Source: Boseongicola sp. SB0665_bin_10
GTDB lineage: Bacteria > Pseudomonadota > Alphaproteobacteria > Rhodobacterales > Rhodobacteraceae
Assembly (NCBI GenBank): GCA_009838075.1
Contig: VXSG01000121.1
Coordinates: 1 to 64,000 of the forward strand
Direction: 5' to 3'
Length of the DNA: 64,000 nt
In this document: in pieces, positions 6,983 through 64,000 of the stretch
Layout: every line of letters starts with the position of its first letter
Position numbering within the stretch: position 1 is the stretch's first letter
The notes under the pieces: generated by a model
Told to the model about the DNA's origin: nothing
What the model saw: only the letters and a program-made list of their open reading frames with translations
Databases searched by the model: none
Program-made: the position numbers and the translations under genes

Positions 6983-7117
6983 ATCTCAAGCCCCTTTGTG
7001 GCAGGACGGATCCGTTCCAGGAGAGTTCCTTTCTCGACACCGCGGTGACCCGCCGGAACATGGCACAGGGTCGGAACAGAATTGCCGCATCCTTCATCCG
7101 CGTTGGTATTCACATGG

Positions 7118-7146
7118 TTGACGGATGGTATACCATCCCATAGGCT
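7118..7146. promoter_or_regulatory. 16-bp perfect palindrome GGATGGTATACCATCC at 7123-7138, just after a TTGACG hexamer; candidate GntR operator
   Basis: Read directly; lies between the divergent GntR gene (start 6982) and M24 gene (start 7193). Confidence 0.7.
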
Positions 7147-7192
7147 TTTTTGGAAGGCACGGACGGCGAACAGGGGGGAGCGGACGCAAGAC

Positions 7193-8371: not shown

Positions 8372-8427
8372 CGCGACGACAATCGAACCGTCCGGTCCAT
8401 TGCCGGACAACAACAAGGAGAACGCAA

Positions 8428-9963: not shown

Positions 9964-9967
9964 CCAC

Positions 9968-10918: not shown

Positions 10919-11729
10919 GGCGTTCCGGACGGCGACCGGCATGACCGGGCTCGGCCTGCTGCTGCTCGTCATGGGGGCGGCAACCCTCGGGCCGTTGCTG
11001 GCGCCCTACGACCCGCAGGCCTTCCACCCCGCCACGCGCCTGCAGGGACCGTCGGCAGCACATTGGCTGGGCACCGACCAGTTCGGTCGCGACCTGCTGT
11101 CCCGGCTGTTGAACGGCGCGCCGTCGACGGTCTACTTTGGCCTTGGCGCCACGCTCCTGGGGGTGGGCGCGGGCAGCATGATCGGGGTGATCGCGGGCAC
11201 CGCGGGCGGATGGCTCGACAGCGTCATCATGCGCATCCTGGACGGGTTGCTTGCCGTGCCCGAACTGCTCTTCACGCTGCTCATCGTCACCTTTCTCGGC
11301 GGCGGCATGGGACAGGCCATGCTGGCGGTCGCCATCGCCTTCACACCGGGGATGGCGCGAATCGCGCGCAGTTCGGTTCTGTCGATACGGACCCGGGAAT
11401 ACGTGCTCGCCGCAGTCGCGCGCGGCGAGCGCGCGCACTACATCGTCCTGCGCGAGGTCCTGCCCAACGCGGTCGGGCCGATCATCGTCGAGGCAACCAT
11501 CCGCGTGGCCTTCGCGATCATGATCGGCGCCACGCTGGGCTTTCTCGGTCTGGGCGCTCAGCCGCCCTCGACGGAATGGGGCCTGATGGTCGCCGAAGCG
11601 CGGCAGTTCATGTTCCGGAACGCCTGGACCGTGGCCGTGCCCGGCGTCGCGATCGCCATGGCGGCAATGGGGTTCAACCTCTTCGGCGACGCGCTGCGCG
11701 ACAGCCTCGACCCAAGGCGGAGCCGCTGA
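10911..11729 (+). CDS. ABC transporter permease (DppC/OppC-like)
   Basis: [35 protein letters not shown]...LGFLGLGAQPPSTEWGLM. Confidence 0.93.
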   Translation: MPKAFRTATGMTGLGLLLLVMGAATLGPLLAPYDPQAFHPATRLQGPSAAHWLGTDQFGRDLLSRLLNGAPSTVYFGLGATLLGVGAGSMIGVIAGTAGGWLDSVIMRILDGLLAVPELLFTLLIVTFLGGGMGQAMLAVAIAFTPGMARIARSSVLSIRTREYVLAAVARGERAHYIVLREVLPNAVGPIIVEATIRVAFAIMIGATLGFLGLGAQPPSTEWGLMVAEARQFMFRNAWTVAVPGVAIAMAAMGFNLFGDALRDSLDPRRSR

Positions 11730-11730
11730 G

Positions 11731-13383
11731 GTGGCGGGCGGCAACGCACGGGGCGCCGACTCGGTCACGCCGGTTCTGGAAGTTTCCGGGTATTCGCTCA
11801 GCTACGCGACGCCGTCCGGCCCGGTCCACGCCCTGAAGAACGTCGATCTCCGCGTGACGCACGGCCAGACGCACGGCCTCGTTGGAGAGTCGGGTTCCGG
11901 AAAGTCCTCGCTGGCCTGGGCGATCCTGCGATACCTTCCCGAAAACGCGATCGAGAACGACGGGAGGCTGCTTCTGTCGGGGGAAAACCTTCGCGACCGG
12001 ACGCATCCGCAAATCCTGGAAATCAGGGGGCGGCGGATCAGCATGGTCTTTCAGGACCCCTCCACCTCGCTCAACCCCGCGATGCGCCTGGGGGAGCAGC
12101 TCTCGGAAGTCCTGATCCGCCATCGGGGACTGTCGTTGCAGGAAGCCCTGGAGGAAAGCGAGGCCGCGCTGGCCCGGACCGGCATTGCGAAACCCGGGGA
12201 CATGCTGCGCCGCTATCCGCACGAGGCGTCGGGCGGCGAAAAGCAAAGGGTGGTGATCGCCACCGCCTTTGCCTGCAACCCGGAACTGATCGTGTTCGAC
12301 GAACCGACCACGGCTCTCGACATCATCACGGCGCAGCAGATACTGGAGCTGTTCAATCAACTGCAGGACGAGACGTCGATTTCGGCGCTCTACATCTCGC
12401 ATGACCTTGGCCTCGTGTCCCGGGTGGCCGACGTCGTCTCGGTCATCAACTCTGGCGAGATCGTCGAGAGCGGACCGTGCGCCGAGGTCTTCCGAACCCC
12501 CCGCAACGACTACACGAAGGCGCTGCTTGACGCCGTCCCCAACCCGAAGCAGTGGCTGGGCGTCAAGGAGCCGCCGTCCGAGGCGCCCGCGTTGATGTCT
12601 GCAAAAGGCGTGACCGTCGAATACGGCCGCCAGTCGCTTCTCGGGCAGCTGCTGGCCCCAAAGCCCACGCATCTCGGGGCGCAGGAGGTCAGCATCGAGG
12701 TCCGGAAGGGGGAGCTTGTCGGATTGGTCGGGGAATCCGGCTCGGGCAAGTCCACCATGGGCAAGGTCCTGTCCGGCTTGCAGGACTTTGACGGCGTCGT
12801 CCGCTTCGGCGACCGGGACTTTGCAAGACTGGCCCAGATCGACCGCGCGTACCGCCGCGCCGTGCAGATCGTCTTCCAGCACCCCGATGCGTCGCTCAAT
12901 CCGCGGCAGCGCGTGCGGGAAATCCTCTCGCGCCCCCTGAAGCTCTACGACATCGTGCCGCGGGAACAACGTGCGGAGCGCATCGCACGGCTCCTGGAAC
13001 AGGTGCGCCTGCCGCCCGAGTTCGCAGACCGGCTGCCGCACCAGCTGTCAGGCGGAGAAAAGCAGCGCGTCGCGATCGCCCGGGCATTCGCCGCGGAGCC
13101 CGAACTCGTGATCTGTGACGAGATCACCGCCTCCCTGGACGTGTCGGTGCAGGCCTCCGTCGCCGAACTCCTCGTGAGCCTGCAGCGGCAGACCGGCACC
13201 GCGTGCCTGTTCATCACCCACGACCTGAACCTCGTCCGGCAGCTTGCGCACCGGATCTGCGTCATGCAGCACGGCAGGCTGATGGACGCGTTCCACCGGG
13301 ACGACGCCGAAGGGCCGGACCGGAACCCCTATACCCGTGCCTTGCTGAAGGCGGTTCCGCCGCCCGCCAGCCAGGCCGCCTGA
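11731..13383 (+). CDS. Fused double ABC ATP-binding protein (DppD-DppF type)
   Basis: Two Walker A motifs ([24 protein letters not shown]), two signature motifs (ASGGEKQR, LSGGEKQR); GTG start. Confidence 0.92.
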   Translation: MAGGNARGADSVTPVLEVSGYSLSYATPSGPVHALKNVDLRVTHGQTHGLVGESGSGKSSLAWAILRYLPENAIENDGRLLLSGENLRDRTHPQILEIRGRRISMVFQDPSTSLNPAMRLGEQLSEVLIRHRGLSLQEALEESEAALARTGIAKPGDMLRRYPHEASGGEKQRVVIATAFACNPELIVFDEPTTALDIITAQQILELFNQLQDETSISALYISHDLGLVSRVADVVSVINSGEIVESGPCAEVFRTPRNDYTKALLDAVPNPKQWLGVKEPPSEAPALMSAKGVTVEYGRQSLLGQLLAPKPTHLGAQEVSIEVRKGELVGLVGESGSGKSTMGKVLSGLQDFDGVVRFGDRDFARLAQIDRAYRRAVQIVFQHPDASLNPRQRVREILSRPLKLYDIVPREQRAERIARLLEQVRLPPEFADRLPHQLSGGEKQRVAIARAFAAEPELVICDEITASLDVSVQASVAELLVSLQRQTGTACLFITHDLNLVRQLAHRICVMQHGRLMDAFHRDDAEGPDRNPYTRALLKAVPPPASQAA

Positions 13384-49413: not shown

Positions 49414-51036
49414 TCAGGACCTGCCCGCATTGCGTTCACTCTCGGAAAGATATGCAGGCAGCGGCAAGGATCCGTCGATGATCGAGGCCACGTCCCCTTG
49501 AGAAATGGCAGGAAAATGTGGTGGGATCGGATCGATCCTGGGCAACCGACGGTCCGCCTTGGTTCCGTCCACGCCACCGGATCCGCGTCGCACATAGCGC
49601 GTCTCGTCGCCCTTGCGCGCCACGTAGTCCCAATCACCGGGATCGCCGGGCGTTGCCTTCAGGAACAGCCGTTCGGCCTGGCTGGCGCGGACCTGCCGGT
49701 CGATCTCTTGCGGGTCCCACCCGTCCAAGAGAATGGACTTGAGTCGCGCGAGCGTGTCCTCGCAGGTCGGATCGCCCGCAAGGTTCCGCAATTCGTCGCG
49801 GTCTGCCTCAAGATCGAACAACAGGTCGGGGTGACCGTGAGTATAGATCAGCTTGAACCGACCCTGCCGGACCATGCGGTGCGGAACGCATGGCCCGATG
49901 CCATAGTAGTCGGAAATCACCAGATCGCGGGTCGTGCCTCCCGTCAGCGCAGGCTCAAGGCTCTCACCGTCGCAAGGCAGCACCACCTCGCCACCCCCGA
50001 TGCCGACCAGCGTCGGCAGCAGGTCGACCAACGAGACGCACTCCTTCACGCGTCGCGGCGCATATCGCTGCGGTGCCGAAATCATCAACGGAACCCGCGC
50101 CGACCATTCATAGAAGCTTTGCTTGAACCACATTCCACGCTCGCCCAGCATCTCGCCGTGGTCGGCGCAGAAAATGATGACGGTATTGTCGGTCTGACCG
50201 CTGGCTTCCAGTGCGCCGAGGATTTCGCCCACCTTGTCGTCGATGAATGAGATCATGGCGTAATAGCCGTGCCGCGCACGACGCAGGTCATCCTCGGTCA
50301 CTCGATGCCTGTGCCGCCCATGTGCAAAGAACAGTGCCCGAGACGCATAGTCGAGATCGTCGAAGGGCAAAGCACCGACTCTTGGCATGTTGATCTTGTC
50401 GGGGTCGTAGCGGTCCCAGTACCGTTGATCAGCGACAAACGGTGTGTGCGGGCTGGTGAATGACGCGACTTGAAACCACGGACCCGCGTCAGCGGCACGC
50501 CGCGCGAGATCATATATCGTCTGAACGGTGGAATGGGCGACCTCTTCGTCAAAGTCCTCTTGCAACGTCCGTGCCGCAGGTCCGGCTTCGACGACACCAT
50601 TCAATCCCGTGGCTGAGGGAACGAAGGCCGGGCCCGCATGCCAGTCGGCCACCCATTCAAATCCCGACGGATACACATCCGTCACCGTGCGTTCGTTGAA
50701 TCCGTGCAGTTGATCCGGGCCGATGAAGTGCATCTTTCCCGACAGGACGGTGTGATAGTCAAGGTGGCGTAGATGATGTGCCAGCGTCGGCTGACTGGTG
50801 GCCAGTTCGCAGGCGTTGTCCCAGACCTTGATTGCGGGGGTCAGCCGCCCCGACATCATCGATGCGCGCGACGGCACGCAAACCGGATAGTTGCAGTAGG
50901 CATTGTCAAATGTCACGCTTGCCGCCGCCAACCGGTCGAGGTTCGGCGTCTTGCAATCCGGGTTGCCGTGGCATGACAACGCCTGCGGGGCCAGTTGGTC
51001 GGCCATGATCATCAGGATGTTCGGTTGATCGGTCAT
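49414..51036 (-). CDS. Sulfatase, second choline-sulfatase-like paralogue
   Basis: MTDQPNILMIMADQLAPQALSCHGNPDCKTPNLDRLAAASVTFDNAYCNYPVCVPSRASMMSGRLTPAI; CxPSR motif (CVPSR), CADHGEMLGERGMWFKQSFYEWSARVPLMI. Confidence 0.9.
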   Translation of the reverse strand: MTDQPNILMIMADQLAPQALSCHGNPDCKTPNLDRLAAASVTFDNAYCNYPVCVPSRASMMSGRLTPAIKVWDNACELATSQPTLAHHLRHLDYHTVLSGKMHFIGPDQLHGFNERTVTDVYPSGFEWVADWHAGPAFVPSATGLNGVVEAGPAARTLQEDFDEEVAHSTVQTIYDLARRAADAGPWFQVASFTSPHTPFVADQRYWDRYDPDKINMPRVGALPFDDLDYASRALFFAHGRHRHRVTEDDLRRARHGYYAMISFIDDKVGEILGALEASGQTDNTVIIFCADHGEMLGERGMWFKQSFYEWSARVPLMISAPQRYAPRRVKECVSLVDLLPTLVGIGGGEVVLPCDGESLEPALTGGTTRDLVISDYYGIGPCVPHRMVRQGRFKLIYTHGHPDLLFDLEADRDELRNLAGDPTCEDTLARLKSILLDGWDPQEIDRQVRASQAERLFLKATPGDPGDWDYVARKGDETRYVRRGSGGVDGTKADRRLPRIDPIPPHFPAISQGDVASIIDGSLPLPAYLSESERNAGRS

Positions 51037-51046
51037 CAATGCGCCC

Positions 51047-51451
51047 TCACACGCTGGCCCGGCGTTCTGCCGGGCGCTGGTTGGCATGGAACGGGATGGT
51101 CACGGAACCGTTCGACTCGCCGGCGCCCACTGTGCCGTCCATGATGCCGCAGGCGGCAAGTGGGTCTCCGGGACGTTGCCCGTCTTGAGGCGCAGCAGGC
51201 CGCTTTCGCCTTCGGCAACAAGGCGCCCTGCAAGGCGGGTGCGTTCGGCATGGAGGCAGGACGACGCGCTGAAGGCGATGTCGTCGACGAAACCCGCGGC
51301 CTCCGCCACCGTGTCTTGGGCGACCGCCGACAGGGTCCGGGCCGGAGACCTCTTCGCGCACGACGTGATCATCCAGTGCGCTGCCAGACGTCTCACCGCA
51401 AGTTGCGACGAATTCGTCCGGTGCGGCAACGTTGCGAATTTCAGTTGGCAT
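51047..51451 (-). pseudogene. Unassigned, apparently frameshifted coding remnant between the GMC oxidoreductase and sulfatase genes
   Basis: Protein-like composition appears to move between frames: MPTEIRNVAAPDEFVATCGETSGSALDDHVVREEV (one frame), RTLSAVAQDTVAEAAGFVDDIAFSASSCLHAERTRLAGRLVAEGESGLLRLKTGNVPETHL (other frame), GIMDGTVGAGESNGSVTIPFHANQRPAERRASV (first frame). Confidence 0.35.
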
Positions 51452-53099
51452 GGGTGCTTTCCAAACTGTTCGAATGTCTTGTGGCCGAGACCTCGGCGCG
51501 GATCATTGCGGCTGCCTTTTCGGCGATCATGTAGGTGGGCGCGTTGGTGTTGGCCGAAGTGATCCTTGGCATGACGGAGGCATCGACGACGCGCAGACCG
51601 TCCACGCCGTTCACCCGCAACTCGGGGTCCACGACGGCGCGCGTGTCCGATCCCATGCGGCAGGTGCCAACCAGATGATAGACCGTTCCCGCCATTTGGC
51701 GCACGGCACGAAGCACTTCCGCGTCGCTCTGATGCTCGGCACCCGGAACGATCTCGCGCCGCCACCGCTGGCGGAATTCGGGCCGCCCATAGAGCTCGCG
51801 CACCAGGCGGATGCCCTCGACGACAACCTTCTGGTCCTTCTCGCTTGAAAGATAATTCGTGCGAATGCGCGGATCAGCGAATGGATCGGTCGTCGCGATC
51901 TGGACCGAACCGCGGCTTTCCGGGTGGCACTGCCAGAACGAGGTTGTGAAGCCGGAGTAGCGATGCAAGGGCAATCCCGGCTTGTCGACCGACAGCGGCA
52001 TGACGAACAATTGCAGATCCGGGCGCCCCCTTGAGGCGTATCTTGTGCAGGCAGCCCCGCCAACCTGGCCTGCGCCCACCGTCAGGGGTCCGCGCGCTTG
52101 CAGCAGCCACTCCAGACTCATTTTGGCCAAGGCGAATGGGTTTCGCATGTGATCGTTCAGCGATGCACCACGTTCGCCCATCTCCACGATCGTGCGCATC
52201 TGCAAATGGTCTTGCAGGTTCTCGCCAACCTCTGATGCATCCTGGCGCACAAAAATGCCGTGTTCGCGCAAGAGCCCGGCTGGCCCGATCCCGGACAATT
52301 GCAACAGCTGCGGTGACTGGACAGACCCGCCACAAAGGATCACTTCGCAGTCGGCGTGGACCACGGTTGCGGCACCGTCCTTGACATACCGCACGCCCAC
52401 GGCGCGTGACTTGTCAAAGATGATCGACGTCACATGGGCACTTGTCTCCAGCGCAAGATTCGGCCGCTGCAGGGCCGGGTGGAGAAAGGCGGTTGCCGCA
52501 CTGTCGCGCCATCGCCCGCGCAGGGTCAGTTGGTATGTTCCCACGCCATGAGCACTTTCACCATTGAAGTCGTCGTTGCGTGGCAGCCCATGCGCCAAGG
52601 CCGCCTGCAGCCAGTCGTTGCAGGCTGGATTGTCATTGCGCAGGTCTGAGACCTGCAAGGGGCCGTGCGCACCTCGAAACTGCGACGGCGGCCCGGCATA
52701 GGTCTCTACCGCCCTGAAATGCGGCAACACGTCCTGGAACGACCACCCGTCCGCTCCGAGAGCCTCCCAATCATCGAAGTCCGCGTGCTGTCCCCGGATA
52801 TAGATCAACCCGTTGATCGAGCTTGACCCGCCAACAACCCGCCCGCGCGGACAATCCGCCTGTCGCCCAGCGATTCCAGGATCGGGGTCGCCAAGATACA
52901 GGTGCGAAACACGCTTGTCGTAGATCGACTTGTAATATCCGACAGGAAGCTTCAGCCAGAATCCTCGGTCTGCCCCACCACCTTCAAGGACAAGAATGCG
53001 CGCTGTTTCATCTTCGGACAAACGGGCGGCAAGCGTCGATCCCGCCGTTCCCGATCCGACGATGATGTAATCAAAGCCAGTCACGCAGCCCATCCGCAA
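51441..53099 (-). CDS. GMC family oxidoreductase (choline/alcohol dehydrogenase-like)
   Basis: FDYIIVGSGTAGSTLAARLSEDETARILVLEGGG, PRGRVVGGSSSINGLIYIRG, VILCGGSVQSPQLLQLSGIGP, C-terminal GTCRMG...RVVDASVMPRITSANTNAPTYMIAEKAA. Confidence 0.92.
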   Translation of the reverse strand: MRMGCVTGFDYIIVGSGTAGSTLAARLSEDETARILVLEGGGADRGFWLKLPVGYYKSIYDKRVSHLYLGDPDPGIAGRQADCPRGRVVGGSSSINGLIYIRGQHADFDDWEALGADGWSFQDVLPHFRAVETYAGPPSQFRGAHGPLQVSDLRNDNPACNDWLQAALAHGLPRNDDFNGESAHGVGTYQLTLRGRWRDSAATAFLHPALQRPNLALETSAHVTSIIFDKSRAVGVRYVKDGAATVVHADCEVILCGGSVQSPQLLQLSGIGPAGLLREHGIFVRQDASEVGENLQDHLQMRTIVEMGERGASLNDHMRNPFALAKMSLEWLLQARGPLTVGAGQVGGAACTRYASRGRPDLQLFVMPLSVDKPGLPLHRYSGFTTSFWQCHPESRGSVQIATTDPFADPRIRTNYLSSEKDQKVVVEGIRLVRELYGRPEFRQRWRREIVPGAEHQSDAEVLRAVRQMAGTVYHLVGTCRMGSDTRAVVDPELRVNGVDGLRVVDASVMPRITSANTNAPTYMIAEKAAAMIRAEVSATRHSNSLESTHAN

Positions 53100-53102
53100 A
53101 AG

Positions 53103-53161
53103 TTCTATCTATAGGACTAATCGGATGGCGCTGGTCACGCAAGAAAAATTCTATATATAGG
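53103..53161. promoter_or_regulatory. Repeated near-palindromic motif TTCTAT(C/A)TATAGG, candidate GntR/UTRA operator pair
   Basis: TTCTATCTATAGG at 53103-53115 and TTCTATATATAGG at 53149-53161, in the divergent region between starts at 53099 (-) and 53191 (+). Confidence 0.7.
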
Positions 53162-53190
53162 TTTTTAGAATTTTTCGGACGACCGCGCAC

Positions 53191-53919
53191 ATGACTAATG
53201 CACTTCGGCAAAGCCGATCTCCGCTCTACCTCCAGATCGCCGAGATTCTGCGACAGAACCTCGGCCGGGGCGTCTGGACACCGGGTGAACTTTTGCCAAC
53301 GATTTCCGAGCTTTCGGCGGAGTACTCAGTCGCCAAGATCACGGTGCGGCAAGCTGTGAAAATCCTGGAAGAAGAAGGACTGCTGGTCTCGCGACGTGGA
53401 CGCGGAACGACGGTCTTGCCGCCGCCACCGGCACGGGATCGGTTACATCTGGGCACGCGACTATCCACGCTTGTCGACCTTTATCGCGGGGACAAGCCCG
53501 CGCTTGACCTACTGGAGGATCGCGACGCCGAAGTGCCGGGCGACCCGTTGATTGGCGAGCTATCGGACAACGGCTATCATCTCTTGCGCCGCACCCATAC
53601 GCGCGACGGCGAAACCTATTGCGTCATCTCGATCTACTTCGACAAGGACCTGTTCGCCCGCCACGAAGCCGAATTCAGAACCCAGCTTGCCTTGCCTGTG
53701 CTTGTCGATTCCGACGATATCGACGTGGCGCGGGCCCGCCAGTCACTGACGATTGGAAAGTGCGGCTACGAATTGGCCGTCTTGCTGAAACTTGCTGTTG
53801 GCGACCCGGTGGTCGAGGTCCGGCGTGTCATCTGCGATCGCCATGATCGGGTGCTCTACTTTGCGGACGTCACCTACCGAAGCGACTTTGTCCGCCTTGA
53901 GATGGACCTCCTCGCATGA
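53191..53919 (+). CDS. GntR-family regulator (HutC/UTRA type)
   Basis: SPLYLQIAEILRQNLGRGVWTPGELLPTISELSAEYSVAKITVRQAVKILEEEGLLVSRRGRGTTVLP; UTRA-like C-terminal domain. Confidence 0.92.
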   Translation: MTNALRQSRSPLYLQIAEILRQNLGRGVWTPGELLPTISELSAEYSVAKITVRQAVKILEEEGLLVSRRGRGTTVLPPPPARDRLHLGTRLSTLVDLYRGDKPALDLLEDRDAEVPGDPLIGELSDNGYHLLRRTHTRDGETYCVISIYFDKDLFARHEAEFRTQLALPVLVDSDDIDVARARQSLTIGKCGYELAVLLKLAVGDPVVEVRRVICDRHDRVLYFADVTYRSDFVRLEMDLLA

Positions 53920-55100
53920 TCGACATTGCCCGCATTCAGGCTTGGGCCTTCCGCTGTCCCACAAAGGAACCGGTCGCCACATCCTTCGGCGTAATGCATG
54001 ATCGACCGGCGGTGCTGGTCCGGATCGAAGACCGTGACGGTGCATTCGGCTGGGGAGAGATCTGGGCAAACTGGCCCGCCGCCGGGGCCGAGCATCGCGT
54101 GCGCCTTCTCGAAATGGACTTGGCACATCTGGTCCTTGATACCAGGGCGGCGTCACCAGCGGAGTTCTTCCACAAGCTTGACGCCCGGTCTCGGATTCGT
54201 GCCGTGCAATGCGGTGAAGCGGGACCGTTCGCCCAAGTGATCGCCGGACTCGACATCGCGCTTTGGGACATGGCCGCACGCCGCAGGGACCTTCCGCTCC
54301 GACGCCTGATCCGCGCTGCCGCGCCGGACAGCGTGCCGGCGTATGCGAGCGGCATACAGATTGCGACGGCGCGTGACCTGATGCAGCACGCGCGGACCGA
54401 TGGACACCATAGGTTCAAGCTGAAGGTAGGCTTCGACATGGCGGCCGACATCGCCGCGGTATGCGACATCCAGGCCAGGTCGGCGGAGCACGAGTTGATC
54501 GCTTGCGACGCCAACCAGGCCTGGTCGCTGGAACAGTCCCTGCAATTCGTGACCGGCGTCGCGATCGTCCCGCTGCACTGGTTGGAAGAGCCACTGCCTG
54601 TCTTCGCTGACACCACCCAATGGCAGTCTCTCGCGGACCATTCCACAATTCCGCTGGCGGGAGGAGAAAACATCATCGGGGAGACAGACTTCGACCACGC
54701 AATCAAGTCGGGTCATCTGTCCGTCATTCAACCCGACATGTCGAAATGGGGGGGTGTCTCCGGCTGCCTCGAAGTGGCACGAAACGCGCTGGCCAATGGC
54801 CGTCGCTACTTCCCGCACTTCCTTGGCGCAGGCATCGGCATGGCCGCATCGGCCGAACTTCTTGCCGGCGCGGGCGGGGACGGGCTGCTGGAGGTCGATG
54901 TCAACGACAATCCATTGAGGTCGATGTTCTTTGACGTCGGCGAACCAGTCGCAGACGGCATGTGGAAATGTTCCGACGGGCCAGGTCTCGGGATTGACGT
55001 CATTCCGGACGGGCTGGAGCAGCACCAGACGCTATACGCCGAAATCACTCAGGCATCTGTTGACAATCATGTTGCCGCGATCACGCCGGCGACGAGATGA
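53916..55100 (+). CDS. Mandelate racemase/muconate lactonizing enzyme family protein; C-terminal codons lie in IS-derived sequence
   Basis: RFKLKVGFDMAADIAAVCDIQARSAEHELIACDANQAWSLEQSLQF...LHWLEEPLP...IPLAGGENIIGETDF...VIQPDMSKWGGVSGCLEVA; enolase-superfamily KxK, D/E/E ligands. Confidence 0.9.
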   Translation: MIDIARIQAWAFRCPTKEPVATSFGVMHDRPAVLVRIEDRDGAFGWGEIWANWPAAGAEHRVRLLEMDLAHLVLDTRAASPAEFFHKLDARSRIRAVQCGEAGPFAQVIAGLDIALWDMAARRRDLPLRRLIRAAAPDSVPAYASGIQIATARDLMQHARTDGHHRFKLKVGFDMAADIAAVCDIQARSAEHELIACDANQAWSLEQSLQFVTGVAIVPLHWLEEPLPVFADTTQWQSLADHSTIPLAGGENIIGETDFDHAIKSGHLSVIQPDMSKWGGVSGCLEVARNALANGRRYFPHFLGAGIGMAASAELLAGAGGDGLLEVDVNDNPLRSMFFDVGEPVADGMWKCSDGPGLGIDVIPDGLEQHQTLYAEITQASVDNHVAAITPATR

Positions 55101-55900
55101 ATCCCCGTCGCGAAGCTCTCGTCGGACTTGTCGTTCCGCATCGCCACCGCCCGGAACTCCTTGATTCGCGCGAAGAAGTCCCGACCTGGTTCCGCCACTT
55201 GTACATCTCCTGATCATTGTCCCGGGACGCCGCGCGGCTCCTCTTCGGGGGAATCACGGGCACCGCGCCGCGTCCCTCCACCTCTTCGAGAAGCCAGTCA
55301 GCATCGAACGCCTTGTCCCCTATGAAGGCCCCGAACCGGAGGTCCTCAAGGAGGGCGGGCACCCGCCGCAGAATCGTGCGCCCGGCCGGGAAGGATCACG
55401 TTCCTCACAAGGCAGCCGAGCGCGTCCACGACCGCCACGATCTTGCCCGTCAGGTCGCCCAGAGAGCGCCCGATCCCCCGCCTTCCGGTCCCCCTTGCTC
55501 CCGACGCCTTCCGATGAGCCTGGACGATCATTGCCGTCAGCGAACACGTGCTCGAGGTCGAACTCCTCTGACAGGGCGTCGAAAACATGAACGAAAACGC
55601 CCAGCGGCGGAACCTCCTGAACACACTGTTCCAGTTGCCGAAGCGCTCCGGAAGGTCGCGCCAGGGCGATCCCGTGCGGAACCGCCGGTTGTCCGCCGCT
55701 GTGACGCCGGGATCGGTCGCCTGGCCGGGCAGCACGGGCTCGACCCGCGCCCACATGGCGTCGGTAAGCACCGTCCATTCTGCATTCATCTCGCCACCTG
55801 CCCGTCTTGCCTGTGCCGCCTTTTCGGCGTGCGTTGCGGCGCAGACCGCATCGGCCCTGCCGAAACGCAACTCGATTGTCAGCGGGCGCTTGACAACAGA
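55056..55900 (-). mobile_element. Degenerate IS5-family element with frameshifted transposase (about 55067-55789)
   Basis: Transposase pieces in three minus frames: [22 protein letters not shown]...[87 protein letters not shown]...EMYKWRNQV. Candidate TIRs TCTGTTGACAA (55056-55066) / TTGACAACAGA (55890-55900), 10/11 matching. Confidence 0.82.
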
Positions 55901-55931
55901 ACGCAGGCATTAAGCACTGGCATTGGCTGCG

Positions 55932-56249
55932 TCACGTTGATGGAATCTCGACGAGGACCCTGCCGTCCACAACACGGGCCGGATAAGTGCTCAACGCTTC
56001 GCAGGCAGGCGACCTGATCGCGGTGCCCGAGCGGACATCGAACTGGCCGTTGTGCTTGGGGCATTCGATCGTGTGGTCGATCACCAACCCATCGGCAAGA
56101 TGCACCTTTTCGTGCGTACAAAGGCCATCTGTGCAGTAGACCTCTTCGTCCCATATCCGGTAGATCGCATAGGTTCGTCCATCGTGGTCCAACCGAACCA
56201 AATCTTCTTCCTCGATGTCAACAAGTGCGCAGGCGTCTATCCAAGGCAT
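55932..56249 (-). CDS. Rieske [2Fe-2S] ferredoxin, MocE-like
   Basis: CTHEKVHLADGLVIDHTIECPKHNGQFD: Rieske CxH...CxxH; next to a desaturase-like gene. Confidence 0.9.
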   Translation of the reverse strand: MPWIDACALVDIEEEDLVRLDHDGRTYAIYRIWDEEVYCTDGLCTHEKVHLADGLVIDHTIECPKHNGQFDVRSGTAIRSPACEALSTYPARVVDGRVLVEIPST

Positions 56250-56263
56250 CGCGTTCTCCGGCG

Positions 56264-57346
56264 TCAGGCGGTCAGGTTGGACTGAACGGGTTCCCATTCA
56301 CCCGCCCCTTCGGGCAGTTGAGGCCGAATGAAGTGGCGCGGGTCGCGAAGCTGCCGCAGAACACAGGGGATGATCTCGGACCATGCGTCCCAGAGCGAAG
56401 GATTGGGCGCGGGCAGGTCGTGTTTCACCACCTCGTGCAGCTTGGGCAAGGCGTGATAGGGCACCATCGGATACATGTGATGTTCGATATGGTAGTTCAT
56501 GTTCCAGTAGATGAAGCGCTGAATCGGGTTCATGAGCACCGTGCGTGAATTGATGCGGTAGTCGAGCACGTCTTCCGCCAGTCCGAGGTGCTGGGGAAGC
56601 CCCATCACGAGCAACAGCCAGATCCCGTAGGCCCGGGGCAGCCCGATGATCATGAGTGGCAGGAGCGACCACGACCACATGGAAACCAGAGCCACCAGAA
56701 CGTAGAGCGCGATGTGGATGCGGCCGACACGAATGGCCTTGCGGCGTTCGGTTTCGGGGATGAGGTCCGCCTCGTCCGGCGGAAGGATCCCCGCGGCATT
56801 CCGGGCCAGCGCAACGAGGCCTTGCGGTACGGCAACAATCCCGAACACGTTGAGGCAGAGCACGATCAACTGCGGTGGTCGCATGCCCGAGATTTCCGGG
56901 TCCCTGCCCACGATGATCGTATCGGTGTGATGGCGGGCGTGAGACCAGCGCCAGACCACCGAGTTTCGCATCATCAGAAAGCTTGCTAATTCATAGACGG
57001 CATCGTTCTTCCACCGGGTCTTGAAGGCCGTACCGTGGCCGCATTCGTGCCAGCGGCTATCAGCGGCGGAAGCGTAGAAGACGCCGTAGACGAAAAAGAA
57101 CGGCAGCGCCCACCAGCTTCCCCAAAGAAGAATGCCACCCGCGCCGCTGCCGACCAGCACGGCAACCCAAATCGCTATGTCGCGCGTCGCCGGCCAATCC
57201 GTGCGCTTCATCAGAGATTTCAGCACCTTTCGGTTTACCGGCGTCCGGTACCACTCCGCGCCCGCGAGGCCCTTGTCAAATGCGCTCTGCCGCTCGGGAC
57301 CGGTCAGGGAATAGTCCCGCTCCATCGGAAATGTTATCAATCGCAT
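56264..57346 (-). CDS. Fatty acid desaturase-like membrane di-iron oxygenase, MocD-like
   Basis: Start at MRLITFPMERDYSLTGPERQSAF; histidine boxes HECGH, HARHH, HIEHH; hydrophobic segments. Confidence 0.9.
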   Translation of the reverse strand: MRLITFPMERDYSLTGPERQSAFDKGLAGAEWYRTPVNRKVLKSLMKRTDWPATRDIAIWVAVLVGSGAGGILLWGSWWALPFFFVYGVFYASAADSRWHECGHGTAFKTRWKNDAVYELASFLMMRNSVVWRWSHARHHTDTIIVGRDPEISGMRPPQLIVLCLNVFGIVAVPQGLVALARNAAGILPPDEADLIPETERRKAIRVGRIHIALYVLVALVSMWSWSLLPLMIIGLPRAYGIWLLLVMGLPQHLGLAEDVLDYRINSRTVLMNPIQRFIYWNMNYHIEHHMYPMVPYHALPKLHEVVKHDLPAPNPSLWDAWSEIIPCVLRQLRDPRHFIRPQLPEGAGEWEPVQSNLTA

Positions 57347-57362
57347 CACGTCCAAGGTACGG

Positions 57363-58151
57363 CTAGCTCCAGTTGTCCAGTGCGGTATCGAACTTGTCCA
57401 ACTCTTCGTCGGAGATCTGGACCAACTCGCTCTCGTCCGGGAACGACCCCGAAGCCACATCACGCCTGAACTCGGAAAACGCCGCCACGCGGTCCTGTTG
57501 CAGTCGCGCATATTCTGCCCGGAAGTCCCTGTAGACCCGGGCATGACGGGGCACGTGACCTTCGGTTTCGCCAAGGACATCGACCGAAAACAGGTACTGG
57601 ACATCACAACCTGCGCCCGAACCCATGGAAATCACGACGAGCGACGTCCGCTTGGAAATCGCCGCCGCAACCGCTGGCGGCACGATTTCCATCTCCACCG
57701 CAAAGGCGCCCGCGTCCTGATAGCGTCGGGCGTCGTTCAGAATGGCGAGGGCATCATCTGCCGTTTTGCCGCGTGCCGCGTAGCCGGTCCAGCGGGCCTT
57801 TTGCGGCATGAAGCCGATGTGTCCGACAACAGGAATCGCCTCATTCGCCATGGCTTCGATCACGTCGTAGTGCATCGGACAATAGACACTGTCGACCCCA
57901 GCCTCCAATGCCTCGAAGGCCGCGCGCTTGGCCTCGTCGGCATTGGCGTATTCGCCGTAGGTCAAGCCGAACGTGAAATGCGTGTTCGGGGCGGCGGTGC
58001 GGAAGTCGTCGCGGGCATGCTTGCGGCCTGACACGATGATCTCGATGCCGGCGGCCTCGGCAGCTGCGGCATGCTCAACCGTCGCCACGTTGAGTTCGGC
58101 AAGCTGACCCTTTCCCTTGTGGTCGATCAGGTCCTTGACCGTCATCTTCAT
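57363..58151 (-). CDS. 3-methyl-2-oxobutanoate hydroxymethyltransferase (PanB)-like protein, divergent
   Basis: IPVVGHIGFMPQKARWTGYAARGKTADDALAILNDARRYQDAGAFAVEMEIVPPAVAAAISKRTSLVVISMGSGAGCDVQYLFSVDVLGE matches PanB C-terminal motifs; N-terminal motifs are altered. Confidence 0.82.
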   Translation of the reverse strand: MKMTVKDLIDHKGKGQLAELNVATVEHAAAAEAAGIEIIVSGRKHARDDFRTAAPNTHFTFGLTYGEYANADEAKRAAFEALEAGVDSVYCPMHYDVIEAMANEAIPVVGHIGFMPQKARWTGYAARGKTADDALAILNDARRYQDAGAFAVEMEIVPPAVAAAISKRTSLVVISMGSGAGCDVQYLFSVDVLGETEGHVPRHARVYRDFRAEYARLQQDRVAAFSEFRRDVASGSFPDESELVQISDEELDKFDTALDNWS

Positions 58152-59188
58152 TCTGCACGCCCTCCGGACTGCGGCAGGTCGGTGCCACGCAGGATCAATT
58201 CCGCGTCGATCAGTTGCTGATGAGGTCCGGCGTCGCCGCCAAGCTTCGCGACCATCATGCGTCCCAGCAGCATCCCAAGCGCGTCGAGATCCTGGCGAAA
58301 CGTCGTAAGACCCATTCCGACATGGGCTGCCACGGGAATGTCATCGCAGCCGATCAACGCCATGTCCGGGCCAGGCCGGATCCCGAACTGCCGCATGGCC
58401 TCCATCGCCGAAAGGGCAATCACGTCGTTGCCGCAGAAGATCGCGGTCGGATCGACACCCCGGGTAATCAGTTCGGTCACGGCATCCGCGCCGGTCTTTC
58501 GCGACAGGTAACATTCAATCTCGAGCGCAGGATCGTGCCCTATGCCATGCGCGTCCAGCGCATCACGGTAGCCGCGCAGGGCATGGTTTGAATAGGTGTA
58601 CCTGAGCGGCGTCGCCAGATGTGCGACGCGGGCATGGCCAAGCCGGATCAGCCGTTCGGTCGCCATGTGCCCGATCCTGTAGTGGTCCACGTCGACCCAG
58701 TCGTGGTCGGACTTGTCCGTTCGTCCGACGGTGACGAATGGAAACCCGCGTGCCTTCAGCCATTCGACCCGCTCGTCCTCGGGACGGGTTCGGCCAAACA
58801 GGAGCCCGTCGCACCGGCCTCGTTCGACAGAATTGCGAATGATCTCGAACTCGGTCTCATGCTCCCGCGCCATGATGATCTGAAGCGCATAACCCTGGGC
58901 CTGCAGTGCAAGTTCAACGCCGTCGAGAAGGCTCAGGAAGAACGGGTCAACAAACTTGGTCCAAGGCTTCGAGACCATGAATGTCACAATGTTGGTCTGC
59001 TTCGATCGCAGGCTCGACGCCGCGAAATTCGCACGGTAGCCAAGGTGCTCTGCAGCGGCTTCCACCTTGCGGCGGGTCTCGAGCTTGACGTCAGAGTATC
59101 CGTTGAGCGCACGGCTGACGGTCGAGACCGAAAGACCGGTCTGTTCGGCCACGTCCCTGATCCCCAATCTTCTGGCGGGTTCGCCCAT
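58148..59188 (-). CDS. LacI-family transcriptional regulator
   Basis: LGIRDVAEQTGLSVSTVSRALNGYSDVKLETRRKVEAAAEHLGYRAN HTH; periplasmic-binding-like C-terminal domain. Confidence 0.95.
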   Translation of the reverse strand: MGEPARRLGIRDVAEQTGLSVSTVSRALNGYSDVKLETRRKVEAAAEHLGYRANFAASSLRSKQTNIVTFMVSKPWTKFVDPFFLSLLDGVELALQAQGYALQIIMAREHETEFEIIRNSVERGRCDGLLFGRTRPEDERVEWLKARGFPFVTVGRTDKSDHDWVDVDHYRIGHMATERLIRLGHARVAHLATPLRYTYSNHALRGYRDALDAHGIGHDPALEIECYLSRKTGADAVTELITRGVDPTAIFCGNDVIALSAMEAMRQFGIRPGPDMALIGCDDIPVAAHVGMGLTTFRQDLDALGMLLGRMMVAKLGGDAGPHQQLIDAELILRGTDLPQSGGRAE

Positions 59189-60759
59189 CAGTTTTCCTCT
59201 GCGATCACATAGCCATGCGCAGGCAGCGCGGCCCCACTATGTTCGCCCGAAAGCACGGTCACACGGTCGTGCCACGCAACGCTCCGGGGAGAATCCGAGA
59301 AATTGAACGCGCACATGAGCCTTTGTTCGTCGTGAATGCGGCAAAAGACAAGCCAGTCCTTCTCGTGCTCCATCGGTTCGAACATTCCGTATCGCAGGGC
59401 CGCGTTCGCGCGGCGCAACGCAATCAGGGCGCGGCAATTTTCCAGGATCGACCCGCTCAACCCGTCCTGCCGAGCGACCGCGAGCGCCGCATGGGACGGT
59501 TCGCAGGGCAGCCAAGTGCACGCATTCTTCGAGAACCCGAGTTGATCCGTGTCGTCCCAGGGAAAGGGCGTGCGCGCACCATCGCGTCCTCGATCATGCG
59601 GCCAGAAACGTATGCCTTCGGGGTCCTTGATCGCTTCACGCGGCACGCGTGAGTGCGACAGCCCCAGTTCCTCTCCCTGGTAGAGGATGACAGTGCCGCG
59701 AAGGCTAAGCAGAAGTGCATGCAGCATCGTCACCCTTGCCGGATTGTCCTCGGCGCCCCACCGGCTGGCAACGCGGCAGACATCGTGGTTTGAAAACGCC
59801 CACGTCGGCCAGCCGTGACCTTCGCCTGCCTCCAGAACCGTGTCCGCGATGACCGATCCGTTCAATTCGGGGGCAAGCAGGGAGAAGCTGTACGCCGTGT
59901 GCAGCCTGTCAGGTGCAGTGTACTCGGACATGCGCTCAACTTGCCAGTCACAGGAAATCTCGGCCAGCAGCATCCGGTCCCCGGCAACATTGCGCATACG
60001 CTCGAGAAATGGCAGGTTTTCCGGCCGCGAACGGTCGTAGAGCCGTTGCTGCATGTAATACGGATTGGCGGGCACCTCGTCGATTTCGGCCGCAGGATTA
60101 TCCCTAAGCGCAGGGTCGTGCATGAAAAAGTTGGCGACGTCCAACCGCAGTCCGTCGACACCCAGGTCGAACCAGAATGTCATGATATCGAGCACTTCGT
60201 CCTGCACGTCCATGTTGTGCAGGTTCAGGTCGGGTTGCTCGACCAGGAAATTGTGCAGATAGTACTGACGCCGTTCGGGCACCCATGCCCACGCAACGCC
60301 ACCAAACCGCGCGAGCCAGTTGTTGGGCGGTCCGCCGTCGGCTTTCGCATCGGCCCAGACGTACCAGTCCGCCCTTGCGCCATCCTTGCCCGAGCGGCTT
60401 TCGACAAACCACGGATGCCGGTGCGAACTGTGGGAATAGACTTGGTCGATGACGACCTTCAGCCCCAGGCCATGCGCCGCCTGCACGACCTCGCGGAAGT
60501 CTTCCAGCGTTCCGAATCGCGGATCGACCTGTCGGTAGTCGGAGACATCGTAGCCCGAATCGTGCATCGGAGAGGGAAAGAACGGCGTGATCCAGATCGC
60601 GTCGATCCCGAGCCCCGCGAGATAGTCCATCCGGCTCAGAAGCCCCCTCAGATCGCCCTCGCCGTCGCCATCGGAATCCATGAAGCTGCGCAGGTAGACT
60701 TCGTATATGCAGGCCCCCCGCCACCATTCTGCGTGCCCTTCACTGCGTTCAGTCGTCAC
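59188..60759 (-). CDS. GH13 family alpha-glucosidase
   Basis: GTG start VTTERSEGHAEWWRGACIYEVYLRSFMDSDGDGEGDLRGLLSRMDYLAGLGIDAIWITPFFPSPMHDSGYDVSDY; GLRLDVANF, AEIS, SNHDVCR catalytic regions. Confidence 0.93.
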   Translation of the reverse strand: MTTERSEGHAEWWRGACIYEVYLRSFMDSDGDGEGDLRGLLSRMDYLAGLGIDAIWITPFFPSPMHDSGYDVSDYRQVDPRFGTLEDFREVVQAAHGLGLKVVIDQVYSHSSHRHPWFVESRSGKDGARADWYVWADAKADGGPPNNWLARFGGVAWAWVPERRQYYLHNFLVEQPDLNLHNMDVQDEVLDIMTFWFDLGVDGLRLDVANFFMHDPALRDNPAAEIDEVPANPYYMQQRLYDRSRPENLPFLERMRNVAGDRMLLAEISCDWQVERMSEYTAPDRLHTAYSFSLLAPELNGSVIADTVLEAGEGHGWPTWAFSNHDVCRVASRWGAEDNPARVTMLHALLLSLRGTVILYQGEELGLSHSRVPREAIKDPEGIRFWPHDRGRDGARTPFPWDDTDQLGFSKNACTWLPCEPSHAALAVARQDGLSGSILENCRALIALRRANAALRYGMFEPMEHEKDWLVFCRIHDEQRLMCAFNFSDSPRSVAWHDRVTVLSGEHSGAALPAHGYVIAEEN

Positions 60760-60786: not shown

Positions 60787-60800
60787 CAAAAACGTTTTTG
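60787..60800. promoter_or_regulatory. Palindrome CAAAAACGTTTTTG, candidate LacI-family operator 1
   Basis: Perfect 14-bp palindrome with central CG, upstream of the GH13 gene. Confidence 0.85.
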
Positions 60801-60901: not shown

Positions 60902-60919
60902 CCCAAAAACGTTTTTGGG
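60902..60919. promoter_or_regulatory. Palindrome CCCAAAAACGTTTTTGGG, candidate LacI-family operator 2
   Basis: Perfect 18-bp palindrome containing the same 14-mer, upstream of the SBP gene starting at 60951. Confidence 0.88.
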
Positions 60920-60950: not shown

Positions 60951-61934
60951 ATGCGCAAGTTCCGCAATTCAGTACTTCTGGCAGTATCTGGCCTTGCGAT
61001 GAGTGTCGGGACAGCCTGGGCAGGTGACTGGTGTTCAGGACAAACGATCCGGCTGTTCTCGGGCGGTCCGGCCGGCGGTGCATTCAACTCGATCATTGAT
61101 CGCGGCGCGATGCAGGCGGCGGATGACACCGGAGCAAATGTCCAAATCATCTATTCGGATTGGGACTTCGACAAGATGGTCACCCAGCTGCGCGAGGCGA
61201 TCAGCCAGGCGCCTGACGGCATTGCGATGATGGGGCACCCGGGAGATGACGCGATCATGCCGTTGGCGGCAGAAGCCGCTGCCGCGGGAATCCCGATGAT
61301 GTACATGAACGTGGACGTGCCGGAAGTGCGTGCGGCCTTCGGGTCGGGCTACGTTGGGGCCACACTTTACCAGCAGGGACGGAACCTTGGCGCCGAGACC
61401 CTACGTCTTGCGGGCGACAGGCTGCAGCCTGGCGACACGGCAATCGTCATGAGCCGGTGGGAAAGCGAAAACCGCGCCCAGCGCGAACTCGGCCTCGTGG
61501 ACGCGCTGGAGGAATTCGGCATGAAGGTCATCAAGCTGCAAGAGGCCGAAGGCGCTTCTGCCGACCAGATGCTGCAGATCCCGGTCCTGACCTCGACCCT
61601 GATCGCCAACCCCGACACCAAGCTCATCGGCTATCCCGGTGGCCCGTGGCTGGCCGCGGCACCGGTGTTCATGGATGCAGTTGGCAAGGGTCCCGGCGAC
61701 ATCATGGCGGTTGGCTTCGACCTTGGACAGGGCGTCATGACCGCGTTCGACGGCGGGTACGTGACGGTGACGGCGGACCAGCAGCCCTACCAGCAGGGAT
61801 ACCTTCCGGTTCTGTCGCTCTGTCAGCAGCTGGTCTACAAGCTTGGGCCGCTCAATGTGGACACCGGTGCCGGCTTCGTGACGGCCGACAACTACAAGGA
61901 TGTGGTTGCCCTCGCCGAGCAGGGCGTCCGCTAG
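60951..61934 (+). CDS. Sugar ABC transporter substrate-binding protein (RbsB-type)
   Basis: MRKFRNSVLLAVSGLAMSVGTAWA signal; VQIIYSDWDFDKMVTQLREAISQAPDGIAMMGHPGDDAIMPLAAEAAAAGIPMMYMNVD; QQPYQQGYLPVLSL. Confidence 0.92.
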   Translation: MRKFRNSVLLAVSGLAMSVGTAWAGDWCSGQTIRLFSGGPAGGAFNSIIDRGAMQAADDTGANVQIIYSDWDFDKMVTQLREAISQAPDGIAMMGHPGDDAIMPLAAEAAAAGIPMMYMNVDVPEVRAAFGSGYVGATLYQQGRNLGAETLRLAGDRLQPGDTAIVMSRWESENRAQRELGLVDALEEFGMKVIKLQEAEGASADQMLQIPVLTSTLIANPDTKLIGYPGGPWLAAAPVFMDAVGKGPGDIMAVGFDLGQGVMTAFDGGYVTVTADQQPYQQGYLPVLSLCQQLVYKLGPLNVDTGAGFVTADNYKDVVALAEQGVR

Positions 61935-62009: not shown

Positions 62010-62801
62010 ATGTCCGCGGCATCAGAGCCGGTCGTTGAACTGCGCAATATCGTCAAGCGATTTGGATCGGTCGAAGCCTTGTCAGGTGTCACGATGACCG
62101 TCCGCAACGGCGAGGTTCTGGGGCTGCTTGGAGACAATGGCGCGGGCAAGTCAACGCTGATCAAGACCCTAGCCGGCGTGCACGATCCCGACGAAGGCGA
62201 GATCATCGTGAAAGGCGAGGTTCGCAAGCCCTGGACACCCGCGGCCGCGCGCGACGCAGGCATAGAAACGGTTTTCCAGGATCGTGCGCTGGCACCGCAG
62301 CATTCCATAGTGACCAATGTCTTCATGGGGCGCGAGATTACGAACTCCCTGGGTCTTCTGCGGGTGCAAGTGCAGATCGACGAGGCCAACAGGCTGATGC
62401 GCGAGATCGGTTTCACCTCGAAGGTATTCAACCCTGAAAGCACGGTTGGGACGCTTTCGGGGGGTGAGCGGCAGGGGGTGGCGATTGCCCGAGCGCTCTA
62501 CAACCAGGCGGACGTGATCGTGCTGGATGAGCCGACGACAGCACTGTCGCTGACCGAGACCCAAAAGGTGTTCCGTTTCGTGGAGGCGGTCAAGTCCTCG
62601 GGCCGGACCGTGGTTTTCATCGGGCACAACATCTATCACGTCTGGGACATTGCCGACCGGTTCTTCGTCATTGACCGCGGGAAAGAAGCCTTCGAAGGTG
62701 CCAAGTCCTCTTTCACCGGCGCCGATCACCTGATCGAGATGATGCACCAACTCGCGGAAACCGGCAGCGCGGACACGAGTTCGCTATTGGAGCCGGCGTG
62801 A
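62010..62801 (+). CDS. Sugar ABC transporter ATP-binding protein (RbsA-type, single ATPase domain)
   Basis: VVELRNIVKRFGSVEALSGVTMTVRNGEVLGLLGDNGAGKSTLIKTLAGVHDPDEGEI...LSGGERQGVAIARAL...DEPTTALS. Confidence 0.93.
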   Translation: MSAASEPVVELRNIVKRFGSVEALSGVTMTVRNGEVLGLLGDNGAGKSTLIKTLAGVHDPDEGEIIVKGEVRKPWTPAAARDAGIETVFQDRALAPQHSIVTNVFMGREITNSLGLLRVQVQIDEANRLMREIGFTSKVFNPESTVGTLSGGERQGVAIARALYNQADVIVLDEPTTALSLTETQKVFRFVEAVKSSGRTVVFIGHNIYHVWDIADRFFVIDRGKEAFEGAKSSFTGADHLIEMMHQLAETGSADTSSLLEPA

Positions 62802-63844
62802 GGACAAACACCGTGAATGACGCGAAAACCAATGCCAATTCAGGGGACCACCGCACTGAGCAATCCAGATGGACGCCCTTTTACCGCAAGAACGGCCGGG
62901 CTCTGAACGCATTCCTGGCCCTTGTCCTGGTTTGGATCTTTTTTGCGGTGAACAACCCGACGCTCTTTCTGAACCCGCTGTTCTACAATGCATTCCTGTT
63001 TTCGGTTCCGGCAACGATCTTTCTGACCACCTCCTTGGTCTTTGTCATCGTTTCGGGCGAGCTTGACCTGGCATTTCCGTCGGTCGTCGGTGCCGCCGGC
63101 GGAGTGTTCATGTACTCCGTCGTGCTCGGAGTGCCCGTGATACCAGCGTTCTTTCTGACCATGGGCTTCGGAGCGATGATCGGTCTTGGCATCGGGTTGA
63201 TCGTTGTCTACGGGCGCATTTCGTCTCTGGTCGCGACGCTCGGCCTCAACTTCTTCATCCTCGGCATCGTCAACCTGCTCGCTCAAGGTCGGACCATTTC
63301 TGCGCCTGAGGCGATGAACAGCTTCGGATACAAGCTTTTTGTTGGAAAATGGCACTTGTTTGACACGACGCTGAGAGTGCCGAACCACTTCATTTGGTCG
63401 CTGGTCTGGGTGGTCTTCTGCTACGTGCTCTTCAAGTATCATCGGTTCGGCAACCGCGTGCAGCTCGTCGGAGACAATACCGACAGCGCTCGTGAAATGG
63501 GCATCAACATCGAGCGCATTCGCGTCAGCGTCTTTGTCGTGTCTGGTGTTGCGGCGGCGATTACAGGTGCATTGCTTGTGCAGATGGCCAACATGGTCTG
63601 GTTCCCGACCAGCGGGAAGGCGTATCTGCTGATCGCGCTTGCGGCGCTTTTCGTCGGCGGCACACCGACCTGGGGCGGTGTGGGCACGATCTTTGGCGCG
63701 TTCTTTGGAGCGATGACCGTCACGCTGATCCCGTCAGGCGCGGTTGGCGCAGGTTTTGCCGGCTATTGGACAGACTTCATATTCGGCCTCGTCATCATCC
63801 TGACCATGATCGCGCACCGCTTTTCTGGCGCGCGGGTCCGATGA
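62798..63844 (+). CDS. Sugar ABC transporter permease (RbsC-type)
   Basis: FVIVSGELDLAFPSVVGAAGG...VGDNTDSAREMGINIERIRVSVFVVSGVAAAITGALLVQMANM...LLIALAALFVGGTPTWGGVGTIFGAFFGA; GTG start overlapping the upstream stop. Confidence 0.93.
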   Translation: MRTNTVNDAKTNANSGDHRTEQSRWTPFYRKNGRALNAFLALVLVWIFFAVNNPTLFLNPLFYNAFLFSVPATIFLTTSLVFVIVSGELDLAFPSVVGAAGGVFMYSVVLGVPVIPAFFLTMGFGAMIGLGIGLIVVYGRISSLVATLGLNFFILGIVNLLAQGRTISAPEAMNSFGYKLFVGKWHLFDTTLRVPNHFIWSLVWVVFCYVLFKYHRFGNRVQLVGDNTDSAREMGINIERIRVSVFVVSGVAAAITGALLVQMANMVWFPTSGKAYLLIALAALFVGGTPTWGGVGTIFGAFFGAMTVTLIPSGAVGAGFAGYWTDFIFGLVIILTMIAHRFSGARVR

Positions 63845-63845
63845 C

Positions 63846-64000
63846 ATGCGCGTGGTGGCGATCACCGGAGCGGCGGGCAGCATCCGGGGGAACGCCGTCG
63901 GCCTGGGCTGTGTGGACACCGCCGTCACCGGTCGCGCGGTGGCCGAACTGCCGGATGCCGAAGCCAACGGGGCGAAGGTGGACGGCGCGTGCATCTTCGG
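63846..64000 (+). pseudogene. Possible internally deleted SDR-family oxidoreductase, runs off the window
   Basis: MRVVAITGAAGSIRG (SDR N-terminal Gly-rich motif) followed directly by NAVGLGCVDTAVTGRAVAELPDAEANGAKVDGACIF (looks like the SDR C-terminal VNAVxPGxVDTxM region). Confidence 0.4.

Follow-up and report, generated by a model that had tools for sequence, protein, structure and literature searches.

What does a relative of ketopantoate hydroxymethyltransferase (PanB) do in an operon with a glucosidase, a regulator and an oxygenase? This question is raised by a 64,000-nucleotide stretch of DNA from Boseongicola sp. SB0665_bin_10 (contig VXSG01000121.1, positions 1 to 64,000), referred to here as the window. 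In it, genes for a GH13 α-glucosidase, a LacI-family regulator, a PanB-like protein, a MocD-like hydroxylase and a MocE-type ferredoxin form a tight minus-strand operon that runs from 60759 to 55932 and diverges from a sugar importer (Table 1). The GH13 and LacI genes overlap at TGATG and the LacI and PanB-like genes at ATGA, with gaps of ~17 bp from PanB-like to MocD and 14 bp from MocD to MocE. The initial annotation had described a five-gene minus-strand operon opposite a sugar importer, and this was borne out by domain matches, by these junctions and by recurrence in sister loci. It had also regarded the combination of genes as unfamiliar, which proved mistaken: the MocD-MocE-PanB-like trio is a widespread module found in many genera and in all seven rhizopine loci that we examined. 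In hundreds of genomes the PanB-like gene is labelled as an enzyme of pantothenate synthesis, a name that its active site and neighbours contradict. We propose that the window encodes an O-methyl glycoside regulon in which MocDE would demethylate the substrate and the PanB-like protein would capture the resulting one-carbon (C1) unit, a proposal whose chances, taken whole, we judge to be about even.

The PanB-like protein and its relation to PanB

Public annotation lists the gene as 3-methyl-2-oxobutanoate hydroxymethyltransferase. Against the PanB equivalog model TIGR00222, its product scored 97.7 bits, below the cut-off of 207.55. Among 199 genomes of the family, true PanBs scored above 240 bits and PanB-like matches below ~130, with a few intermediates near 160, and the PanB-like homologues form a clade separate from PanB with a support of 1.0. 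Relatives frequently carry a true PanB besides the PanB-like gene. Neither PanB nor PanC was found in the window organism's own genome, a 98.6% complete assembly, which argues that the PanB-like gene does not serve pantothenate synthesis and leads us to expect that the organism depends on an external supply of pantothenate or a precursor.

We compared active-site residues using the E. coli PanB encoded in NC_000913 as reference, in which we take D45, D84, K112 and E114 to be metal and substrate residues. In 65 of 65 homologues D84 is replaced by G, A or C (G in the window protein), K112 is replaced by Y and E114 is lost; all 65 retain H136 and E181. D45 is not conserved among the homologues and is R in the window protein, and the loop that follows it is shortened. 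Strictly conserved polar active-site positions of the family are Y90, H111, E153, E155, R202 and H203. The predicted model (predicted local distance difference test score 94) has the PanB fold; its best 28 Protein Data Bank matches are all PanB, with template modelling scores of 0.64-0.71 by query length, and the nearest folds after these are methylisocitrate lyase, dimethylmalate lyase and phosphoenolpyruvate (PEP) mutase. Fold and the H136/E181 pair are therefore common to both proteins, while the lost residues, the short loop, the separate clade and the oxygenase operon context set the PanB-like protein apart.

A second, divergent PanB-like paralogue (38% identical) lies elsewhere in the same genome (locus L074 in our numbering, contig C12, 6503-7288). 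No MocD, FA_hydroxylase or PhyH match was found near it, and a frame resembling a binding-protein-dependent transport permease is close.

MocD and MocE homologues in rhizopine and sister loci

The window MocD and MocE are 59% and 58% identical, respectively, to their counterparts in the rhizopine locus of Rhizobium indicum plasmid pPR13E04, and the PanB-like protein is 48% identical to the one encoded in that locus. We assign this as a moc locus because its pyridoxal-phosphate-type regulator exceeds the curated cut-off of the MocR equivalog NF052281 (739 bits against 650). The His boxes HECGH, HARHH and HIEHH of the window MocD align with those of rhizopine MocD, and the window MocE contains the motif CTH-x16-CPKH. 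Together with the PF00487 match and a TIGR02377 score above cut-off, the three His boxes uphold the MocDE-like desaturase and Rieske pair of the initial annotation; a search for solved structural relatives of MocD found none. The gene order mocR-mocD-mocE-mocF-PanB-like-purU was present in 7 of the 7 MocR loci examined, from Rhizobium, Phyllobacterium and Sinorhizobium. In two rhizobial strains, R. leguminosarum RCAM2802 (L177, 13356-14136) and S. meliloti BL225C (L179, 13350-14113), the PanB-like frame is split, by either a natural frameshift or a sequencing error.

Rhizopine catabolism by mocDEF is described for Sinorhizobium meliloti L5-30 and Rhizobium leguminosarum (Bahar 1998, as cited in PMC10107442 and PMC5789663). 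PMC10107442 names the moc units mocDEF, mocR, mocBA and mocC, with neither a PanB-like gene nor purU among them. A search of open-licence papers, a set that leaves most subscription papers outside, returned nothing relevant on a PanB-like gene in the rhizopine or demethylation literature, and a role of this gene among the rhizopine genes seems so far to have gone unnoticed.

The window MocD and MocE are orthologous to those of rhizopine mocDEF in sequence and order, and in the moc loci the PanB-like gene sits after mocF. The window operon differs in having LacI, GH13, GH31 and PhyH genes in place of mocF, MocR, mocA and mocC; between 55932 and 63844, MocR, a ferredoxin reductase (mocF), MocA and MocC were not found. 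The window binding protein scored 80 bits against the rhizopine substrate-binding protein model NF052284 (cut-off 420), which is a weak test in that the binding protein of the R. indicum MocR locus also falls below 420. Rhizopine was rejected as the substrate of the window system, as regulator, binding protein and auxiliary genes all differ.

Elsewhere in the same genome (L182, contig C5 42000-60000), positions 6107-11776 hold another MocD/MocE pair, which comes with a LacI regulator of its own and has no PanB-like gene nearby. It adjoins a homocysteine S-methyltransferase-family gene and an arginine deiminase (ADI)/amidinotransferase-like gene, and may serve a further demethylation pathway in which something else accepts the methyl group or C1 unit.

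The arrangement of GH13-LacI-PanB-like-MocD opposite binding protein-ATPase-permease recurs at 58-98% identity in loci L038, L039, L040, L041 (=L087), L085, L086 and L088. These span several genera, the named matches being metagenome-assembled genomes (MAGs) labelled Silicimonas, Boseongicola, Rhodobacteraceae HLUCCA08 and Marivivens, and given this recurrence the gene order of operon and importer is not a matter of chance. The named matches also make Rhodobacteraceae the very likely family of the host. Between the divergent arms, the palindrome CAAAAACGTTTTTG has 2 perfect matches in the window against 0.02 expected by chance, and these are the only two sites genome-wide at up to one mismatch. 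The pair is found again in sister loci, with a spacing of 117-118 bp in L038, L040, L041, L085 and L086. Given that the paired sites lie between the arms, are unique in the genome and are kept in sister loci, the local LacI regulator probably controls both arms through these two operators. Scanning the divergent region for promoter and terminator consensus sequences found nothing.

One sister locus, L212, keeps the LacI, GH13, importer and GH31 genes; MocD, MocE and the PanB-like gene are all absent, and two short-chain dehydrogenase/reductase (SDR) genes and a cytochrome P450 gene stand between the permease and GH31. The nearest solved chain to this P450 is 6g5o (296 bits, against 125 for the next), which we presume to be a P450 that demethylates 6-O-methyl-galactose. 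The same P450 is present together with MocDE and the PanB-like gene in L040 and L041, and the slot between permease and GH31 is filled by PhyH in the window, L038, L085 and L086. The natural reading of these exchanges is that the regulon handles a glycoside bearing a methyl group, with one demethylase exchanged for another between lineages. MocDE and the PanB-like protein are, judging by the gene content of L212, not obligatory for glycoside use. The initial annotation had stated that its reading would be refuted if relatives conserved the GH13 and importer set without the oxygenase and PanB-like genes; this was found once, in L212, where the substitute P450 is a probable demethylase, so that demethylation survives.

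P450-mediated oxidative demethylation of 6-O-methyl-D-galactose yields galactose and formaldehyde (PMC10033563). The porphyran P450 system of marine Bacteroidetes described there resembles the window system in that an oxygenase and a ferredoxin remove a methyl ether from a sugar, and a related P450 occurs in the sister operons. It differs in that the window has a di-iron MocD/MocE pair, a PanB-like gene and α-glycosidases instead of porphyran enzymes.

The P450 substitution in L212 and the 58-59% identity of MocD and MocE make uptake, deglycosylation and O-demethylation, as initially suggested, the best reading of the locus, one that is supported in part. We consider it likely that the locus is a regulon for an O-methyl glycoside and that MocDE is its demethylase. 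The LacI-controlled divergent regulon would allow use of an O-methylated α-glycoside. On the evidence of their families, the CUT2 importer would take up the glycoside, and GH13, together with a GH31 enzyme beyond the window, would hydrolyse glycosidic bonds; both glycosidase families are observed, and their specificity is a prediction. By homology to rhizopine MocD/MocE and from the P450 substitution, MocD, receiving electrons from MocE, would then hydroxylate the methyl ether (R-OCH3 -> R-OCH2OH), which amounts to an oxidative O-demethylation.

A predicted fate for the methyl-derived C1 unit

The PanB-like family is found well beyond the rhizobia and the Rhodobacteraceae. We confirmed at least 565 PanB-like loci in a contig scan of one genome per species, and the matches listed include Rhizobiaceae, Rhodobacteraceae, Acidimicrobiia, Trueperaceae, Chloroflexi and others; in a phylum sample, 15 of 299 genomes carried the gene. 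Among 62 loci whose PanB-like proteins are less than 80% identical to one another, 52 have a MocD-, FA_hydroxylase- or PhyH-type gene within 6 kb, a count that includes PhyH, which is common in marine bacteria. In a clustering of loci, MocD-type genes share a strand with the PanB-like gene in 38 of 38 loci. The 199 family genomes contain 71 MocD-like genes. Of these, 37 are accompanied by a PanB-like gene at a distance of up to 6.5 kb, in 35 cases on the same strand, and the two genes co-occur by genome with a Fisher p of 1e-16; a binomial test of their proximity ignores relatedness and reads only as far from chance.

PanB-like loci without MocD adjoin other oxygenases, namely FA_hydroxylase, PhyH and a Rieske oxygenase. 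Some of these, with FA_hydroxylase or TauD neighbours, hold dimethylarginine-hydrolase-like genes and an importer of the glycine-betaine type, a hint that they act on N-methyl substrates. A gene for PurU lies within 350 bp of the PanB-like gene in 15 of ~106 flanked loci, from Sinorhizobium/Ensifer, Rhizobium, Phyllobacterium, a Devosia MAG and a beta-proteobacterial MAG. Because one family adjoins unrelated oxygenases and a folate enzyme, the PanB-like protein would appear to handle a product common to several oxygenases, and a C1 unit derived from a methyl group suggests itself as the obvious candidate. The protein would accept this unit, as hydroxymethyl or formaldehyde, and most likely load tetrahydrofolate with it to give methylene-tetrahydrofolate. 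In rhizobia the adjacent PurU would then free the folate again by releasing formate; in the window organism, whose genome yielded no PurU above cut-off, the C1 unit would exit by other folate reactions.

In two contigs from MAGs or single cells, labelled Pelagibacter and Alphaproteobacteria (L128, 7140-9810; L151, 8067-14136), two or three consecutive PanB-like genes accompany genes of the MocD and FA_hydroxylase types. This suggests tandem PanB-like paralogues that are matched to different oxygenases.

Several points weigh against a folate-linked C1 role. A nearby PanB-like gene is absent from the remaining 34 of the 71 MocD-like loci, and the PanB-like protein is thus not obligatory for MocD chemistry; no substitute gene common to most of these loci was found, and several are inositol-type clusters. 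PurU adjacency is confined to Rhizobiales and the one beta-proteobacterial MAG, and no PurU reached the cut-off in the window genome. Formaldehyde can react with folate non-enzymatically, and folate binding by the PanB-like protein is a guess. We hold the folate-linked C1 role to be plausible, at a little under even chances. More tentatively, the PanB-like protein may be a dedicated and so far unrecognised enzyme that charges C1 units from demethylation onto tetrahydrofolate, serves unrelated oxygenases in several phyla and supplies the missing step from mocDEF to folate, with O-methyl sugars and inositols, and perhaps N-methyl compounds, as the substrates. Loading of demethylation-derived formaldehyde onto folate is often taken to be spontaneous. 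If the C1 role is true, it would fill a gap in rhizopine catabolism and identify an enzyme for this loading, and many uncharacterised operons could be recognised as routes for the demethylation of sugars, inositols and possibly N-methyl compounds.

A different chemistry, which we regard as unlikely, would make the PanB-like protein a carbon-carbon lyase that carries out a retro-aldol cleavage, with or without folate, after MocD, PhyH or FA_hydroxylase has hydroxylated the skeleton or a C-methyl group. The lyases and PEP mutase among its closest folds after PanB and the retained H136 and E181 fit this idea, as do dehydrogenases in some loci (IolG, Gfo/Idh/MocA, SDR) that are able to make the needed ketone. 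However, the metal ligand D84 and the keto-acid residues K112 and E114 of PanB are lost, the neighbouring purU and the position within the rhizopine operon favour C1 chemistry over cleavage of the skeleton, and in the known rhizopine route it is the iol genes that deal with the inositol ring (Bahar 1998).

It is decidedly unlikely that the protein is instead a folate-independent helper of the oxygenase, which would break the unstable hydroxymethyl hemiacetal, hold formaldehyde or support the membrane hydroxylase. Such a helpful and dispensable factor would fit the tracking of several unrelated oxygenases and substrates, and the absence of a nearby PanB-like gene from about half of the MocD-like genes; the strictly conserved polar active-site positions suggest catalysis instead, and the link to purU would be left unexplained. 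Alternatively, MocD might not be a demethylase; the glucoside might carry no methyl group (glucosylglycerol, for example), and MocD might hydroxylate or desaturate its aglycone. The relatives of the GH13 enzyme are ordinary α-glucosidases, and the FA_desaturase family includes hydroxylases of other substrates. We nevertheless consider this improbable, as the window MocD has 59% identity to rhizopine MocD with the same motifs and a P450 nearest 6g5o replaces MocDE in the same operon context. Finally, an ordinary panB making ketopantoate for coenzyme A, as the public name implies, was rejected and deserves next to no weight, given the TIGR00222 score, the separate clade, the lost metal ligands, the lack of PanC in the genome and the additional true PanB often present in relatives.

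Features of the window and neighbouring genes

The coordinates of the operon, operators and importer are collected in Table 1. MocD was taken to start at 57346, the upstream frame not being part of it, and MocE at 56249. The nearest solved chains to the GH13 enzyme are 6aav (an α-glucosyltransferase) and 3wy1 (an α-glucosidase), then 7voh, and its translation contains GLRLDVANF, LLAEI and FSNHD, which supply the nucleophile, the acid and the third Asp of the catalytic domain. Beyond the window end the plus-strand unit runs on with a PhyH-type dioxygenase and the GH31 glycosidase, whose closest solved relative is the α-xylosidase MeXyl31.

Table 1. Positions in the window of the operon, its operators and the divergent importer (ABC, ATP-binding cassette)
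Feature	Coordinates	Strand	Evidence and remarks
MocE-type Rieske [2Fe-2S] ferredoxin	55932..56249	-	TIGR02377, 159 bits against cut-off 136; predicted electron donor of the hydroxylase
MocD-like membrane di-iron hydroxylase, FA_desaturase family	56264..57346	-	PF00487, E 2e-36; proposed O-demethylase
PanB-like protein, not ketopantoate hydroxymethyltransferase	57363..58151	-	PF02548, E 8.5e-40; proposed to accept the C1 unit derived from the methyl group
LacI-family regulator	58148..59188	-	PF00356 and PF13377
GH13 α-glucosidase, GTG start	59188..60759	-	PF00128, E 9.5e-110
Palindromic operator CAAAAACGTTTTTG, copy 1	60787..60800		28 bp ahead of GH13
Palindromic operator CAAAAACGTTTTTG, copy 2	60904..60917		117 bp from copy 1; 34 bp ahead of the binding-protein gene
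CUT2-type sugar-binding protein	60951..61934	+	PF13407, E 5e-26
Importer ABC ATPase, single-domain	62010..62801	+	PF00005, E 3e-32; best NCBIfam match RbsA-type
CUT2-type permease	62798..63844	+	PF02653, E 1e-30

On the other side of the operon, just 3' of mocE (55081-55910), are frames that, with the translation judged by eye, resemble a broken IS5-type transposase. The neighbouring cluster at 49414-55100 comprises a sulfatase, a GMC oxidoreductase, a GntR regulator and a mandelate-racemase-type gene; among the sister loci it is kept beside the operon in L086 (95% identity) and not in the others. From 63844-64000 onward, the frame that follows the permease reads as the first part of an SDR joined directly to the last part of one, an apparent internal deletion; in L039, L040, L041 and L212 this slot is taken by one or two SDR genes.

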